The position numbers and the translations under genes were made by a program. Below are positions 39,732 to 45,629 of a stretch of 64,000 bases of DNA, piece after piece. The stretch is from NCBI RefSeq assembly GCF_017355855.1, contig NZ_JAFEWD010000005.1, positions 186,001-250,000 on the forward strand, written 5' to 3'. Source of the DNA: Pedobacter sp. SYSU D00535 (GTDB lineage: Bacteria; Bacteroidota; Bacteroidia; Sphingobacteriales; Sphingobacteriaceae). The notes below the pieces were generated by a model. That model was not told the origin of the DNA and ran no database searches. It saw only the letters and a list, made by a program, of their open reading frames with translations. Each line of letters begins with the position of its first letter. Position 1 is the first letter of the stretch.

Positions 39732-39765
39732 ATAGCTTACCGGTTATCCTCCTGGTAAGCTATCT
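39730..39765. terminator. Inverted repeat between convergent genes
   Basis: AGATAGCTTACC (39730-39741) and GGTAAGCTATCT (39754-39765) are perfect 12-bp complements around a 12-base loop. It overlaps the stop of the HAD gene and the last codons of the opposing gene. No T run; it can form in both transcripts. Confidence 0.6.
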
Positions 39766-40064
39766 GCTCCATTGAAAGTGGGATGACGTACGATTTGGGC
39801 TGCAATGCCTAGTAACTCATCCCCGGATAGGGTACCACCACCTTCAAAATCAAAATCTTTTTCTGTCCTGATGGTGATTTGGCCCAGCGTACTGTCGGTC
39901 GGGATGTCATCAATATCAACCGGGTCTTTTTCAGCAAGTGAGCTGTTGATATCCGGATCAGTGATGCGGAATACGTTTGTGTAGCCCGATGTTTCTTGTA
40001 CAATTACAGGCTCAATAACCAGTCTTCGTCTCTCCTGTCCAATCTGTATTTCGAAGTTTTCCAT
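39744..40064 (-). CDS. Hypothetical acidic cytoplasmic protein
   Basis: 106 residues: MENFEIQIGQERRRLVIEPV, then acidic (DINSSLAEKDPVDIDDIPTD), then FDFEGGGTLSGDELLGIAAQ and the C-terminal FNGADSLPGG. No signal peptide, membrane segment or recognised domain. Transcribed alone, convergent with the HAD gene. Confidence 0.65.
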   Translation of the reverse strand: MENFEIQIGQERRRLVIEPVIVQETSGYTNVFRITDPDINSSLAEKDPVDIDDIPTDSTLGQITIRTEKDFDFEGGGTLSGDELLGIAAQIVRHPTFNGADSLPGG

Positions 40065-40189: not shown

Positions 40190-41005
40190 TTATTTTATTT
40201 CCAGGTCCATTTCTGCCGCCTGGACATCTTCTTTGCTACCATAGTCTACTACCCCGGTTACGGTGTACTTGCCTTGGGCCATGTCGGTAGGTAGAACAAA
40301 CTTCATTTCTCTGGATCCGCCGGGCAAAACAGTAAACCCTGCCGGCTTAAGCCGTTCTTTTTTACCTGTCTTAAGATTTACATATTCAACATAAGAAGCG
40401 CAATCTAAAATCGCTTCCCCTGTATTTTTCGTAACAATCGCTACTGCCCTTTCTGTTGGCGTTACACCATCAACTTGTTTGAAACTGACAATTTCGGCCT
40501 GTTTCAAGGTGACACTTGGAGGAGTTTGAAACAGGTGGACAACAAACTGAAACGTTTCTATAATACCCATCCCCACGCTATTGCTTCCAAGATTCGCAGC
40601 TTCTGACCTTTCTTTTGCAAGTTTGATAAGCATTGTTCCCCATTTTACTTTATTTGATTCCGGAAGATTAGGAAGCTCAAGGATTACTTGTACATCTTTA
40701 CTTTCGCCTGCTTCTAATTCGAAAAAGGATGGATTAGCAGAGATGTTTTTTGCGAGTGAATTAGGGCTCTCGCCAGGCTTAAGAAGAGTCGACTTTCCTG
40801 TACTGCCTGGGGCAGCAAAGTCGCCAAATGTAATTTGAAAGGCCTGTTTCTTACTAGAGTTGTTGGTGATTTTCAGCGACTGAGTTTTACTTTCACCTGG
40901 GTTTACTTTGTAATAAATCCGACTTGGAGCTACTGATACACTTTGTGCTCTAACTGTTGAAATTAAGATTACTAAGAATAGTAAGGCGTTAATTGCTTTA
41001 TTCAT
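40190..41005 (-). CDS. Periplasmic Ig-like protein resembling a pilus chaperone
   Basis: 271 residues with a signal peptide (MNKAINALLFLVILISTVRA, cleavage at RAQ). Two beta-sandwich domains are suggested. The first (about 22-155) opens with VSVAPSRIYYKVNPGESKTQ then SLKITNNSSKKQAFQITFGD, the N-terminal pattern of PapD-like and MSP-like domains. The second (about 160-271) has AIVTKNTGEAILDCASYVEY and ends in VQAAEMDLEIK. It is the last gene of the minus-strand four-gene unit and overlaps the barrel gene by eight bases. Signal peptide, two Ig-like domains, and a neighbouring outer-membrane barrel and secreted subunits suggest a periplasmic chaperone. Function is inferred. Confidence 0.8.
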   Translation of the reverse strand: MNKAINALLFLVILISTVRAQSVSVAPSRIYYKVNPGESKTQSLKITNNSSKKQAFQITFGDFAAPGSTGKSTLLKPGESPNSLAKNISANPSFFELEAGESKDVQVILELPNLPESNKVKWGTMLIKLAKERSEAANLGSNSVGMGIIETFQFVVHLFQTPPSVTLKQAEIVSFKQVDGVTPTERAVAIVTKNTGEAILDCASYVEYVNLKTGKKERLKPAGFTVLPGGSREMKFVLPTDMAQGKYTVTGVVDYGSKEDVQAAEMDLEIK

Positions 41006-44000
41006 CTTGTTTATTCGATTTACTGTTATTGTCTTTCGTTTCTATTACTTTTCCTTGCTGATCAAATCGTTTGATGTTGAGTTTTCTCTTTTTCTCCAGC
41101 ATATTAAAGGTGATGTTGTAGTTGTCAGCAACGGTGAGCATATCTACCACAATTCGTTTTTGTTGGAGTTCGAAGTTTTCTGGAAGCACATTCTCATTGA
41201 CGCTCACACTGTATGTTCCAACTGGAAGTTTCAAAACAAAGCGTCCATTGCCATCTGTGAGGGTCGAGTATATTTTCCCAAGGGAATCGATAGCGGTTAC
41301 GCGAATCTTACTTACATCCACGCTTCGTTCATAGTCCGCAGAGACAACATCTTTTTGAGCCATTAAAATCCCTGTTAGTTGAACTCCCTGATTAAGCGGC
41401 ATTAATACTGTTTCGTCATCTTTTAAGGACAGAATTCTTTCATTGGCAGCGAAAAAGCCAGAATTCTCAGACAATGGGACAAGAGTGATTTTATACTCAC
41501 CTTTCGGTAGATTATTATAAGCAATTTTTCCCTGTTGATCAGTAACAAAGTTTTCCCCGATCTCTTTTAAACGCGACTGACTGTTGTCCGTGCTATCAAC
41601 ATTAAGAGACTTCACGTTAATTAGTACATTTTTTATCCCCTGCTCATTCTTGTCCTGTTGCCCATTGCCATTCAAATCTTTAAACACTGCGACTTTCAAA
41701 GCCTTATATTTCTTTCCAGATACTGGCACTCCTATTCTTTTTTTGAAACCAAATCCGAAAAAAATATTTGAGGTGCTCATCGATTGGTCGAACGCCTCCA
41801 CATTATCTAGATTAATAAAAGGGTTGTTTTTTTGATTATTGTTAATGTACTGCCCATAGAATCTGAACTCAAGACCACTTTTGGGCATGTAGTAGAATTC
41901 GGGTCTGGCGCTAATTCTATGTCTCTTGAATAGGGTTTCGTAGCTGTAAACGAAGCTGGGCTCAAAACTTAACTTGTTTCTAAGCACCCACAGTTTCAGG
42001 TTAGTATTAGTATATATAGACTGGTTATTCACCTTTGTATTTGCGAAAAGAAGTTGCTCGAAAGTCTGGTAAGGTCCGTAAAAATACCGGATACTCGAAG
42101 TTAAGCCCCTGTGTCTGACCATCGTCCTGAGCTGAGCTGAGAAGTAAGGATTCAAATTATAATCAGGAAGTTCGTTGTATGCGCCGAAAACGGAAAGGTA
42201 AAACCTCGTGTTGCCCGTCTGCCTCGGTCTAAAATCTACTCCAAGGCCATTTGATCTTGTTCTTAGATTAAAAATATTATTTTCCTGGTGTTGTAGCTTT
42301 AGAGCTGTTGTGTAATTATAGGGACTGTAAGTATATTTCAACTCGTATAATGCACTAGCACTGGGCCGACTGGTTAGAAGAAAGCCTGAGGTGCTTAAAT
42401 ACTGTGGATTTTGGTCATAGCTGTAGTAGTTCGCCTCGGCGCTATTCGTGTAATTGAATCTGTATAAGACATTGGCGCCAAAGCTGGTAATGCCGCGGTA
42501 GCTGGTGTTGAATTTGCTACCATAGGTGTGGTGAAAGCCAAAAGTGAATTTCCGGATGGCACCGAAGTAATTAACAGCGTACGCATAGCCAGTTTTAACG
42601 ACCGGCGTAGTAAAATCATAATAATTTTCTTGAGAAAGTGCCGAGTTAAGCGTAATACTGTGGTTTCGAGCAAAAGGCAGTCGGAGGCTGTTACTGTACT
42701 GCAGTCCGTCAAATTTTAATAACGAATTCTCTGTCCGTTGAAAATAGTTATCGAAGCGGGTTCTCCCAATTCGGAGTCCGTAACTAAAGCCGTAGTCTGT
42801 TCTGTTTACACTGTTGAATAGACGAGGATTCTGTAAGTAGAAAGCTCCGAACGTGTGGTTGCGAAGGACTTCTTGCGTAACCCTTATACCTCGCCCTGTT
42901 GGTGTTAAGCCAAAATTTGGGCTACCGCTAACGTCACCAATTTCGACTGTGGTCTTCGGGCTAGTATAGCCAACATAATGTGAATTTCCTAAATAGGGGA
43001 GGTAACTGTAGAAGTTGTCCGCGAAAAAAGTCTGGAACCGATAAATCAGGCTCCTATTGCCCGGAAGGGTAGTGTTGCCATATAAACTTAGATTGAGTAT
43101 GGTTGAATTATCAAGGATATTATCAACATTTGCTTCTATCGTTAAGGGCGCGGATTCATAACGGTATTCCCGCATTCGAGCTTGTGTTCCAGTTCGTATG
43201 AAATCAATGGTGGTTCTCCAGGTCTTCGGTGCCGAATACTCATCAGCCTCGTTCTGAACAGTAATTTTTAATGGATATACATCTGCTTTGGTAACATCAT
43301 AAATCACGTCAAAGTCTTCCCTAAACGATCTCTGAGGAAGGCTCAGCTTTTCAGCTGTAAAATATAACGTGGTATCCGTTTTAATAGGGAGAGTAACGTT
43401 GAAATGCTTGATTTCAATAGGTGTGTTGCTATTGTCCAGTACCCTCAACCTCCGGTCGCTGGCAAAGTTGATTTTTATTTTCTCCTCCGCATTGCCGTTG
43501 TTCTGTAGTTTAATTGCGAACTTCGCCGTGTTACTACCTTCGAGAAAAAACACCTTGTTTTCAGCAGCGGCAGCGTTCCAATCAGTTTCTTTTTTTATGC
43601 TGAGATACCAAATAGCGGAGCCGAATTGAATATTATCATCATTGATTAGTGACGCATTAATAACGTGATTGACGTTTCCGTTACTTGTTTTCTTGGGAAT
43701 AAGGTTTACAGGGATGAACAAAGAATCATAAGGGGATATAGTATAGTTTGTGTTCATCCGCGAAACAAACTTCCAAGAATCAGGAGCGGAAATAGCCAAA
43801 CTAAATGTGTATTCTCGATTTGAGTTATTTTTAACCCTTAGGATGTTGGATGAAAGCTCATTACTTTTCTGTTCCGTTTTTTTATTTACGAAAGCGACTT
43901 CAAATCCCCGTGCATTATTTACGTCTTGGCCTTTTACTTGCTTAGCCGGCAACAAGATTATTACGAGCTGAAAAAAAAGCGCGTAGCAAAAGCTGTGTAA

Positions 44001-44024
44001 ATGGTTGGGGGTAGGAGCTCTCAT
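40998..44024 (-). CDS. Large outer-membrane barrel protein, usher-like
   Basis: 1008 residues. After a signal peptide (about 1-32) come two Ig-like domains (about 35-145 and 150-260). Residues about 285-765 alternate polar and aromatic strands as in a large outer-membrane barrel; near its start, EIGDVSGSPNFGLTPTGRGI (361-380) recalls the G-D and F-R-G-x-x-L stretch of fimbrial ushers. The C-terminal part has an SdrD-B-like domain with a calcium-type loop FKDLNGNGQQDKNE (781-794) and a transthyretin-like domain (about 875-945, VTAIDSLGKIYSTLTDGNGR). The tail is Lys/Asp-rich. It is not a TonB-dependent receptor: no plug or TonB box was seen. It probably exports or anchors the two small upstream proteins (inference). 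Confidence 0.8.
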   Translation of the reverse strand: MRAPTPNHLHSFCYALFFQLVIILLPAKQVKGQDVNNARGFEVAFVNKKTEQKSNELSSNILRVKNNSNREYTFSLAISAPDSWKFVSRMNTNYTISPYDSLFIPVNLIPKKTSNGNVNHVINASLINDDNIQFGSAIWYLSIKKETDWNAAAAENKVFFLEGSNTAKFAIKLQNNGNAEEKIKINFASDRRLRVLDNSNTPIEIKHFNVTLPIKTDTTLYFTAEKLSLPQRSFREDFDVIYDVTKADVYPLKITVQNEADEYSAPKTWRTTIDFIRTGTQARMREYRYESAPLTIEANVDNILDNSTILNLSLYGNTTLPGNRSLIYRFQTFFADNFYSYLPYLGNSHYVGYTSPKTTVEIGDVSGSPNFGLTPTGRGIRVTQEVLRNHTFGAFYLQNPRLFNSVNRTDYGFSYGLRIGRTRFDNYFQRTENSLLKFDGLQYSNSLRLPFARNHSITLNSALSQENYYDFTTPVVKTGYAYAVNYFGAIRKFTFGFHHTYGSKFNTSYRGITSFGANVLYRFNYTNSAEANYYSYDQNPQYLSTSGFLLTSRPSASALYELKYTYSPYNYTTALKLQHQENNIFNLRTRSNGLGVDFRPRQTGNTRFYLSVFGAYNELPDYNLNPYFSAQLRTMVRHRGLTSSIRYFYGPYQTFEQLLFANTKVNNQSIYTNTNLKLWVLRNKLSFEPSFVYSYETLFKRHRISARPEFYYMPKSGLEFRFYGQYINNNQKNNPFINLDNVEAFDQSMSTSNIFFGFGFKKRIGVPVSGKKYKALKVAVFKDLNGNGQQDKNEQGIKNVLINVKSLNVDSTDNSQSRLKEIGENFVTDQQGKIAYNNLPKGEYKITLVPLSENSGFFAANERILSLKDDETVLMPLNQGVQLTGILMAQKDVVSADYERSVDVSKIRVTAIDSLGKIYSTLTDGNGRFVLKLPVGTYSVSVNENVLPENFELQQKRIVVDMLTVADNYNITFNMLEKKRKLNIKRFDQQGKVIETKDNNSKSNKQDE

Positions 44025-44027
44025 TTC

Positions 44028-44600
44028 CTATAAATCTTGCATCAAAATAAAGTCTACCCGTAGCGAGTAGGAGCCAGCTCTATAGTTAAGCCCCGGTGTC
44101 GCTTTTAAGTCAACCTTGAAAGTGTAGCACTGTGGTTGCGTGTTATATGATCCGGCAGCATTTGCTCCTGTAACCCCACATGGTGCAGCAGGATCGTTTC
44201 CCGAGCTGCCGATGATATAATTTGGACTGGATATGTCCGAAAGATTGAAAAATGAAGTTCCTGTCTGTGTTGTGTTTGCAGTATTATATACCCTAGCTTG
44301 TAAGATGTTTACGGGAATGGAAGAATTCCCTGAGCTTCCGTAAGCATTGTTAACATCAAAGAAGCCGTTGGTAGTAGTAGTGGTACCAACATACAAGTCC
44401 CACTCAGCCCCAGGCGACTCAACTCGCAAAGTGAGAAAGGAAGGGATTATAATGCCCTTTTGATATTTCTCAATAGTGTTAAAATCGAAATTTACGTTAG
44501 GTGTTGTCTTCAAGGCGAAGCTTACAGTCTGCGCATTGATATGCGAAAAACTCGCTGCGCTTAAAAGAAAGAATGTAAATAGAGGCAGTAAATTCTTCAC
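44028..44600 (-). CDS. Secreted subunit-like protein B
   Basis: 190 residues with a GTG start and a signal peptide (MKNLLPLFTFFLLSAASFSH, cleavage at NAQ). It contains NVNFDFNTIEKYQKGI (35-50), WDLY (67-70) and a Cys pair (around APCG and QPQC) that could form a disulfide. It ends in AGSYSLRVDFILMQDL. The same motifs stand at matching places in the upstream protein, so the two are paralogues. Strongly beta-rich, Ser/Thr/Asn-rich. It lies three bases before the barrel gene. Probably a fibre or surface subunit (inference). Confidence 0.8.
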   Translation of the reverse strand: MKNLLPLFTFFLLSAASFSHINAQTVSFALKTTPNVNFDFNTIEKYQKGIIIPSFLTLRVESPGAEWDLYVGTTTTTNGFFDVNNAYGSSGNSSIPVNILQARVYNTANTTQTGTSFFNLSDISSPNYIIGSSGNDPAAPCGVTGANAAGSYNTQPQCYTFKVDLKATPGLNYRAGSYSLRVDFILMQDL

Positions 44601-44693
44601 TTGCGCTATCCCCCGGGGGTGTAAAAAAGAGAGTTAAATTAGATTAGTTTGAAAAGGGGCACAAGAATCCTTGTGCCCATCTTTCGGTTGATA

Positions 44694-45353
44694 TTATAAA
44701 TCTTCAACTAGTGCGTAAACTACTTCAAGGTAGTAATAACCTGCCTGAGCATATCCAGGTGCACCTAGTGGCACTACTGAATTAGGAAATGTTGCAGGGA
44801 TACCAGGCTTAATTTTGTAATGAAGTCTAAATTGATTGGTCGCGGGGTTAGCAGCGGCGGCCCCCGGAGCGTAAGATTGATTCACGGCTGTACCCACCTG
44901 GCCGGCAAGGAATTGCGTTGCAACCGTAGGGATGCCGTTTCCTACTTGTGAATTTCCCAAACCTTTCAAACTCACAAACGAATTAAAGTTGTTTGTAGCA
45001 CCACTCGCATTTGGTCTGATTGCTTGAATTTCCAGGATTTCAGCTGGTAAAAGAGGCGTTCCATTGGTGGAGTAGGCATCTACTTGAACCCATCTATCCG
45101 TACTAGCATAAGCAAATAGATCCCATGCAACAGTTGCATCAACGTCCAGTTTGGTAGCGTTGAATTTAGTAATACCTTGCTGGTAGTCTGGAATAGATTT
45201 GAATGAAAAGTTTACGGTCGGGTCAGTAGTCATCGTCAGGTTTAAAATTCCCTGAAGGTCCATTGTCACGTAAGCGTACTCTTCATCTGATAGTTGTGCG
45301 AAGGACGTCGCCGAGAAGCCAAGCATGGCCAAGAAAAGAAAAATTTTCTTCAT
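44694..45353 (-). CDS. Secreted subunit-like protein A
   Basis: 219 residues with the start at 45353 (MKKIFLFLAMLGFSATSFAQ); a longer in-frame extension lacks sense and hides the signal peptide. Shared motifs: TVNFSFKSIPDYQQGI (46-61), WDLF (77-80), and the C-terminal AGYYYLEVVYALVEDL, like protein B. There is a low-complexity Ala/Pro/Asn stretch (about 155-185, SYAPGAAAANPATNQ). First gene of the unit and, by its place, perhaps the main subunit. No cysteines in the mature part. Confidence 0.8.
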   Translation of the reverse strand: MKKIFLFLAMLGFSATSFAQLSDEEYAYVTMDLQGILNLTMTTDPTVNFSFKSIPDYQQGITKFNATKLDVDATVAWDLFAYASTDRWVQVDAYSTNGTPLLPAEILEIQAIRPNASGATNNFNSFVSLKGLGNSQVGNGIPTVATQFLAGQVGTAVNQSYAPGAAAANPATNQFRLHYKIKPGIPATFPNSVVPLGAPGYAQAGYYYLEVVYALVEDL

Positions 45354-45593: not shown

Positions 45594-45629
45594 AAAAAAG
45601 GCCGGGAGAATTTTGCTCCCAGCCTTTTT
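45594..45629 (-). terminator. Intrinsic terminator of the ara operon
   Basis: On the minus strand, AAAGGCTGGGAG and CTCCCGGCCTTT pair around CAAAATT, followed by a T run. It lies 18 bases after the araA stop. T and A runs on both sides could let it work in both directions. Confidence 0.88.

Follow-up and report, generated by a model that had tools for sequence, protein, structure and literature searches.

Four adjacent genes of Pedobacter sp. SYSU D00535 raise the question of whether a member of the Bacteroidota can build fibres by a pathway of the chaperone-usher type, as a preliminary description of this DNA had suggested. We analysed the 64,000-nt stretch in which they lie (the window; all coordinates are positions within it, 5′ to 3′). 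The four genes very probably encode a chaperone-usher-like pilus system, and on the best reading they represent chaperone-usher pili in a new form belonging to the Bacteroidota.

The four-gene unit and its conservation

The open reading frames lie on the minus strand in one close unit (40190-45353), as the preliminary description had it, and the ORF coordinates give the same intergenic gaps of 93, 3 and −8 bases. The features of the unit, in the direction of transcription, are as follows.

45595..45629, minus: terminator-like hairpin upstream of the unit
44694..45353, minus: sub1 (219 aa), pilin-like subunit read as the major one, with a signal peptide and a mature chain starting near residue 20 (TLP-1/TLP-2 homology, model)
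45246..45296, minus: residues 20-36 of sub1, the N-terminal extension, which we propose as donor strand (outside all strands of the model; length compared with other subunits)
44657..44678, minus: 9-bp perfect stem-loop directly 3′ of sub1, which may determine how much major subunit is made relative to downstream products
44028..44600, minus: sub2, pilin-like paralogue without N-terminal extension, 190 aa, GTG start, proposed tip subunit (paralogy, extension length)
40998..44024, minus: usher-like outer-membrane barrel protein, 1008 aa (Pfam domains, AF2 model, Foldseek, VIA)
43347..43904, minus: residues 41-226 of the barrel protein, two N-terminal Ig-like domains, presumably on the periplasmic side (AF2 model)
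41733..43166, minus: transmembrane barrel, residues 287-764, predicted with ~26 strands and without an insertion of plug size (AF2 model, VIA)
41001..41732, minus: C-terminal SdrD_B/transthyretin-like domains of the barrel protein (Pfam)
40190..41005, minus: PapD-family-like periplasmic chaperone, 271 aa, with an 8-base overlap with the barrel gene (hhalign)
40919..40921, minus: chaperone Arg29, at the Arg8 position; His157 is at the FimC Lys112 position (alignment)
40529..40570, minus: chaperone residues 146-159, aligned to the G1 donor strand of FimC (alignment)

Sub1 was taken to start at the ATG at 45353, which gives 219 aa; the ORF list begins it at an upstream TTG. The terminator-like hairpin (45629-45595) separates the unit from the upstream gene. 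Scans before sub1 for promoters of the sigma-70 type and for TANNTTTG, which we take to be the Bacteroidota −7 type promoter element, returned nothing convincing. Pfam and NCBIfam did not name the system from the window proteins and family members, and PADLOC gave no match.

None of the refuting results named beforehand was seen, poor conservation of the gene set being one of them: the chaperone family lies in the barrel's cluster in 92 of the 95 typed loci. Two loci had been counted twice (L080 is L151, and L079 is L165), so that there are 93 distinct loci, 90 of them with the chaperone. Chaperone and barrel share a strand in 83 of the 92, and the three loci without a clustered chaperone carry truncated or split barrels, two of the three at contig edges. 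In two relatives, L186 and L187, the same four genes stand in the same order, with a 14-base overlap of barrel and chaperone genes as called; the flanks there differ from those of the window, and the grouping is therefore more than chance. One named collection has the order subunit(s)-chaperone-tip-barrel in 53 of its 56 loci.

Chaperone and subunits

The last gene encodes a two-domain Ig-like periplasmic protein, as had been proposed, which we assign as a remote PapD-family chaperone. By hhalign, a profile of 40 mature chaperone sequences matched six E. coli K-12 chaperones at 91.0%, collinear across 195 columns; 30 column-shuffled controls reached at most 8.3%, and the reversed control 0.2%. 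The window clade alone (four sequences) gave 78.9%. Single K-12 chaperones were matched unevenly (YbgP 88.7%, SfmC 51.6%, EcpB 17.2%, four others below 6%). With the Ig-like domains at the barrel's own N-terminus the same profile gives 72.1%, so a general Ig-like fold accounts for part of the signal. Only 3 of 20 family members reached Pfam PapD_N at E 0.01. Among 36 members, the Arg8 position holds Arg in 26 (the window's among them), Lys in 4 and other residues in 6; the Lys112 position holds Lys in 18, His in 12 (window included), Gln in 5 and Tyr in one. Weak sequence-only searches of the PDB put FimC first, at 0.059, with 20 chaperones; with 40, WxLIP was first at 0.0059 and PapD-family chaperones came at 0.37 or worse. 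The likeness to WxLIP of Gram-positive bacteria is remote (PF06030, E 0.0018; 9i25, E 0.0059), and Pfam and NCBIfam matched none of the four window proteins to a WxL protein.

Sub1 and sub2 had been described as two paralogous secreted proteins in the place of pilins. Their paralogy stood (phmmer 2.1e-9 and 2.3e-9), and a major pilin with a tip subunit fits better than a pair of equivalent pilins. In Foldseek, the predicted model of sub1 (pLDDT 77.3, pTM 0.72) had TLP-1a/b and TasA at the top ranks and CfaB, of the CFA/I type, next; in VIA it matched TLP at Z 11.7/11.1, followed mostly by donor-strand pilins at Z 5.6-7.3. The fold of sub1 is, as modelled, donor-strand-pilin-like. One pilin profile did not match the E. 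coli K-12 pilins (hhalign 2.1%), and a second did not reach the E. coli pilins in the PDB.

The N-terminal extension of sub1 is paired in no strand of the single-chain predicted model. From the mature start to the core Tyr there are 37 residues in sub1 versus 22 in sub2, and we propose sub2 as the tip subunit since its sequence is without such an extension. Just five of 142 scorable single-domain subunits have 22 residues or fewer over this distance, and these five sit in five loci that lack a longer tip-like protein; a protein of that kind is present in 83 of the 95 typed loci (81 of 93 distinct). By eye, a like pair of subunits is seen in six further loci. Each of the 10 four-gene loci examined has one subunit with an extension and one without. 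Loci hold up to five subunit genes.

Sub1 is homologous to TLP-1/TLP-2 (PDB 9ikj and 9ikk; phmmer E 1.5e-10 and 1.1e-10, respectively). The sequence match to TLP-1a/TLP-1b spans TLP chain residues 4-198 of 236-237, and the fold alignment with TLP-1 covers the chain (VIA Z 11.7, 173 aligned, rmsd 3.8). Both entries contain 16 identical chains, and a TLP relative lies within the same gene set in all eight genomes where one was found. We take 9ikj and 9ikk to be the filaments of the CryoSeek pond-water study; this relative of sub1 appears to have been solved by cryo-EM as a filament, and the four-gene type of system is probably the source type of the TLP filaments. The pond-water filaments found by that group had no conclusive identification, according to a review (PMC12967142).

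The barrel in comparison with ushers

Pfam and AF2 agree with the earlier account of a 1008-residue barrel protein with an Ig-like N-terminus and an SdrD/transthyretin-like C-terminus, the latter matching SdrD_B (2.7e-12) and CarboxypepD_reg (1.3e-7). The expected barrel of about 24 strands with an internal plug was not borne out: the AF2 model, of modest quality (pLDDT 72.8, pTM 0.45), has ~26 predicted strands, no inserted plug and no plug-sized gap between barrel strands. The position of the plug within the FimD barrel served for comparison. Pfam detected no plug or receptor domain in the window barrel or in 20 barrels.

Against the PDB, the best eight Foldseek matches of the barrel were FimD chains (E 4e-11 to 6e-10), at TM-scores of only 0.20-0.24 by query length; ciliary proteins came next (E 1e-9). 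VIA ranked chain B of the Mtr complex at Z 19.5, then AlgE and porins, with FimD at 15.1 and PapC at 13.7; a family missing from a VIA list was never counted as evidence. The usher family PF00577 had no match at E 0.01 in 20 barrels, and in 296 Bacteroidota genomes it gave 0 matches over the cut-off and 3 below, while the E. coli control was detected. Direct hhalign comparison with five K-12 ushers gave nothing (0.8%); EcpC was matched at 80.3%, but only across 117 C-terminal columns. The barrel profile found SdrD, NOMO, FixG and weaker pieces among PDB sequences, and no usher.

We also looked for intermediates that would link the barrel by sequence to the ushers of Proteobacteria. By hhalign, L091/L094 match the window's barrel family (97.5%, 834 columns) and, at 99.3%, a second usher-like family from another order, of which two members matched K-12 ushers at 75.9%. 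With 18 members of the second family the value is only 6.1%, and with L091/L094 0.2%, so the last step to the K-12 ushers is not established. The barrel is the divergent part of the set; it may be usher-like as a very remote or a convergent usher.

Alternatives, known systems and proposed assembly

The reading as a chaperone-usher-like fibre system draws its support from the chaperone, the pilin-like fold with its unpaired N-terminal extension, the extension-less tip subunit, the conserved gene set and the Foldseek rank of FimD. A rival reading is an usher-free matrix fibre of the TasA or archaeal-thread kind, formed by donor-strand exchange, in which the barrel would export proteins generally and the Ig-like protein would have a stabilising role. 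The TasA fibre is third for sub1 in both Foldseek (7.4e-4) and VIA (Z 7.3), VIA places the barrel nearest to chain B of the Mtr complex, and the usher family gave no match in the barrels searched and none over the cut-off in the genomes. We consider such a fibre improbable, since a PapD-family chaperone (in 92 of 95 loci) and a dedicated barrel are clustered with the subunits, and the pattern of tip and extension fits ordered assembly starting at the tip. Slightly less probable again is an ordinary channel or receptor in the barrel, with the small proteins as its accessories at the surface: in VIA, FimD is outranked or equalled by other exporters and by porins, but a homologue of sub1 was solved as a 16-chain assembly, several subunit genes and a longer tip-like protein are found in loci of this kind, and Pfam found no plug or receptor domain.

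Type V (FimA/Mfa1-like) fimbriae, built from protease-activated lipoprotein subunits, are another alternative. They are the fimbrial type described for the phylum (PMC5789003). We give this explanation hardly any credence. No FimA/Mfa Pfam match was found in sub1, sub2 or 32 subunits (A4), in neither sub1 nor sub2 did inspection by eye show a Cys where the signal peptide is cleaved, and the PapD-like chaperone present here stands against P. gingivalis, for which, according to PMC5789003, chaperone and usher genes had not been described.

Proteobacterial chaperone-usher pili (type 1 Fim and P pili; class 5/alternative CFA/I) have in common with the proposed pilus system a PapD-family chaperone, a pilin-like fold, an N-terminal extension on the major subunit, a tip that is extension-less or longer, and a large predicted barrel flanked by beta domains at either end. 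The Bacteroidota barrel differs from their ushers in having no PF00577 signature and, as modelled, no inserted plug; it is predicted with ~26 strands, and its ends are Ig-like (N-terminal) and SdrD/transthyretin-like (C-terminal). Type V fimbriae (FimA, Mfa1) resemble the putative window system in phylum, surface fibres and supposed strand exchange; they differ in their lipoprotein subunits, which undergo stepwise protease maturation. The open-licence PMC texts consulted (including PMC10716499, PMC9452303, PMC5789003, PMC12967142, PMC13336489 and PMC12689565) hold no description of a Bacteroidota chaperone-usher system, and PMC4793230 excluded chaperone-usher from its scope.

We lean towards a wider reading, in which the genes represent a widespread Bacteroidota pathway, undescribed in the literature that we searched, with a plugless usher-like translocon. 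Such a pathway would make donor-strand fibres, and the orphan environmental filaments of TLP-1 would come from systems of this type. If so, chaperone-usher-type fibre building would reach common Bacteroidota (Chryseobacterium, Flavobacterium, Sphingobacteriaceae), in contrast to the differently made type V fimbriae described for the phylum, and the cryo-EM filaments would gain candidate producers. A plugless usher-like barrel would also be a test of how far the full FimD machinery is needed.

In the assembly that we propose, signal peptides would take sub1, sub2 and the chaperone across the inner membrane. There the chaperone would complete each unfinished Ig-type pilin domain with a strand of its own and hand the subunit over to the Ig-like domains at the barrel's N-terminus. 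Assembly would begin with sub2, which has no N-terminal extension and would form the tip; sub1 copies would be added next, each N-terminal extension entering the preceding subunit and displacing the chaperone, and the fibre would exit through the barrel.

The stem-loop after sub1 may hold the major subunit in excess. The window's stem-loop alone is marginal (z −1.98; 8 of 200 shuffles fold equally well). Across loci, 78 of 87 major subunit genes have a stem-loop with z ≤ −2 behind them (76 of 85 when the two doubled loci are left out), compared with 13 of 92 after chaperone genes, 13 of 83 after tip genes and 9 of 96 after barrel genes.

Distribution of the gene unit

Pilus assembly by a chaperone-usher-like route is the most likely function of the system encoded at 40190-45353 (minus strand). 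The translocon differs in sequence and predicted architecture from those of known chaperone-usher pili, and, as far as our searches of the open-licence literature reach, Bacteroidota is a new phylum for such a route; we therefore regard the system as a variant of the chaperone-usher kind.

An ORF check placed the four genes where the preliminary description had put them. They are transcribed in the order sub1 (major pilin-like subunit), sub2 (its paralogue, the proposed tip), barrel (usher-like outer-membrane protein) and chaperone. Two same-family relatives, L186 and L187, share this order, with identities to the window of 78% (sub1), 64-67% (sub2), 53-54% (barrel) and 66-69% (chaperone). Since the order is kept while the flanking genes are unlike the window's, the four-gene block is a unit on its own. 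A 106-aa ORF downstream (39744-40064) has no family match.

Within the order, 201 genomes were searched with the window barrel; 31 matched at E 1e-5, and these represent 8 of 16 genera. Of 395 genomes across the phylum, 16 matched a 20-barrel profile at E 1e-10, 12 strongly (E below 1e-90) and four in parts only, a count that is a lower bound, two candidates per genome having been scored. A named collection yielded 56 loci, in Chryseobacterium, Flavobacterium and one Weeksellaceae bacterium; the order is subunit-subunit-chaperone-tip-barrel in 39, subunit-chaperone-tip-barrel in 14 and chaperone-tip-barrel in one, and two have barrel pieces only, at contig edges.

Typing covered 95 loci: the window, 20 of the 33 places from the within-order barrel search (a total that counts the window's own), 16 from another set of 20, the 56 of the named collection and 2. 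L091-L094, the rest of that other set, are distant or partial matches and were omitted beforehand. Conservation of the gene set across Bacteroidota, proposed earlier as a check, is evident: a chaperone accompanies the barrel in 92/95 loci and a longer tip-like protein is present in 83/95 (90/93 and 81/93 distinct loci, as L080 equals L151 and L079 equals L165). Nine of the 92 loci with a chaperone have it on the strand opposite to the barrel; in the other 83 the two genes share a strand and are separated by no more than one typed gene.

In L031-L033 three subunit genes and the barrel gene are transcribed away from the chaperone gene. The 392-aa barrel remnant of L038 (5759-6937), in a one-contig genome, stands without a typed chaperone or subunit next to it and probably represents a decayed system. 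Scanning six proteins with Pfam revealed regulator genes beside or near some loci; none of these kinds is among the immediate neighbours of the window unit.

Regulator genes, AraC-type or LuxR-type/response-regulator
L078 990-1823
L087 11554-12384
L034 4199-4873
L086 4964-5641
L085 3225-3872
L039 4543-5169

Chaperone and barrel

The chaperone family aligned with six E. coli K-12 chaperones in hhalign at 95.0% with signal peptides and 91.0% without, the latter versus at most 8.3% for 30 column-shuffled controls. Against single K-12 proteins the profile was uneven (YbgP 88.7%, SfmC 51.6%, EcpB 17.2%, the other four below 6%), and it also matched the barrel's own N-terminal Ig-like domains (72.1%). 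The G1 strand region aligns with that of FimC, and in this alignment the window chaperone carries Arg opposite Arg8 and His opposite Lys112.

The AF2 barrel model, built from 20 sequences (pLDDT 72.8, pTM 0.45), has two Ig-like domains and C-terminal beta domains. About 24 strands with an internal plug had been anticipated; the prediction instead has about 26 strands, in residues 287-764, and no plug-sized insert. Foldseek ranked FimD first, with low TM-scores, VIA preferred chain B of the Mtr complex (MtrB), and no match to the usher family PF00577 was found in 20 barrels, or over its cut-off in 296 Bacteroidota genomes. Thus, we infer that the barrel would work like an usher, and do not assign it to the usher family.

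In another Bacteroidota order a second usher-like family occurs beside chaperone-like and pilin-like genes (L093 3598-8689, L092 4391-9392), with a match at E 1e-10 in 74 of 116 genomes; three members match PF00577 weakly, below its cut-off.

Subunits and TLP filament proteins

Sub1 is homologous to TLP-1 and TLP-2 (PDB 9ikj and 9ikk, titled as cryo-EM structures of TLP-1a and TLP-1b). In VIA its predicted fold aligned with these entries at Z 11.7 and 11.1, over model residues 20-218 and the whole TLP chain; TasA and the P-pilus, CFA/I, type 1 and Csu pilins came next at Z 5.6-7.3, a range shared by unrelated folds. A 195-residue TLP stretch matched two of 395 Bacteroidota genomes (E 1e-5), the window's and G513, and seven of 216 genomes of the G513 family, G513 included. 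All six further genomes carry the four-gene set, ordered barrel, chaperone, sub1, sub2, so that this barrel and chaperone accompany it in 8/8 genomes found with a TLP relative. Of the consequences of the pilus reading, the connection with TLP-1 filaments lends itself best to testing.

We typed 173 single-domain subunits and scored in 142 the distance from the mature N-terminus (signal-peptide cut set by a simple rule) to the core tyrosine position. It was ≤22 in only five and ≥25 in the other 137; two subunits did not align, and 28 of the 29 aligned but unscored are short minor subunits (121-154 aa) with the extension visibly kept. These five, the window's sub2, the corresponding subunits of L081, L186 and L187 and a subunit of L089, come from loci in which the longer tip-like protein is lacking. 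A count by eye gives 22 residues for sub2 of the six further TLP-relative loci too. L031-L033 and L090 likewise have no typed tip-like protein. Tip-like proteins and subunits have their C-terminal domain in common (hhalign 99.7%).

In pilus operons, hairpins after subunit genes set subunit ratios. Comparing the 90 bases 3' of each gene with dinucleotide shuffles, we found a stem-loop (z ≤ -2) after the major subunit gene in 78/87 cases (median z -3.92), or 76/85 without two doubled loci; medians after chaperone, tip and barrel genes were -0.29, -0.43 and -0.01. Outside the 53 named-collection cases it was found in 26/34, and many loci are closely related. The window's own stem-loop is marginal by shuffling.

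L031-L033 include one subunit whose N-terminus is unusual and contains Cys; this might be the tip. Chryseobacterium loci encode an extra short subunit (121-154 aa) with the N-terminal extension kept and the core reduced, possibly a base or terminator subunit; one is at L078 1877-2311, and many loci among L122-L175 have a gene like it. L082-L085 and L088 contain tandem runs of two to five subunit genes that resemble one another, which suggests variation among the subunits or high dosage.
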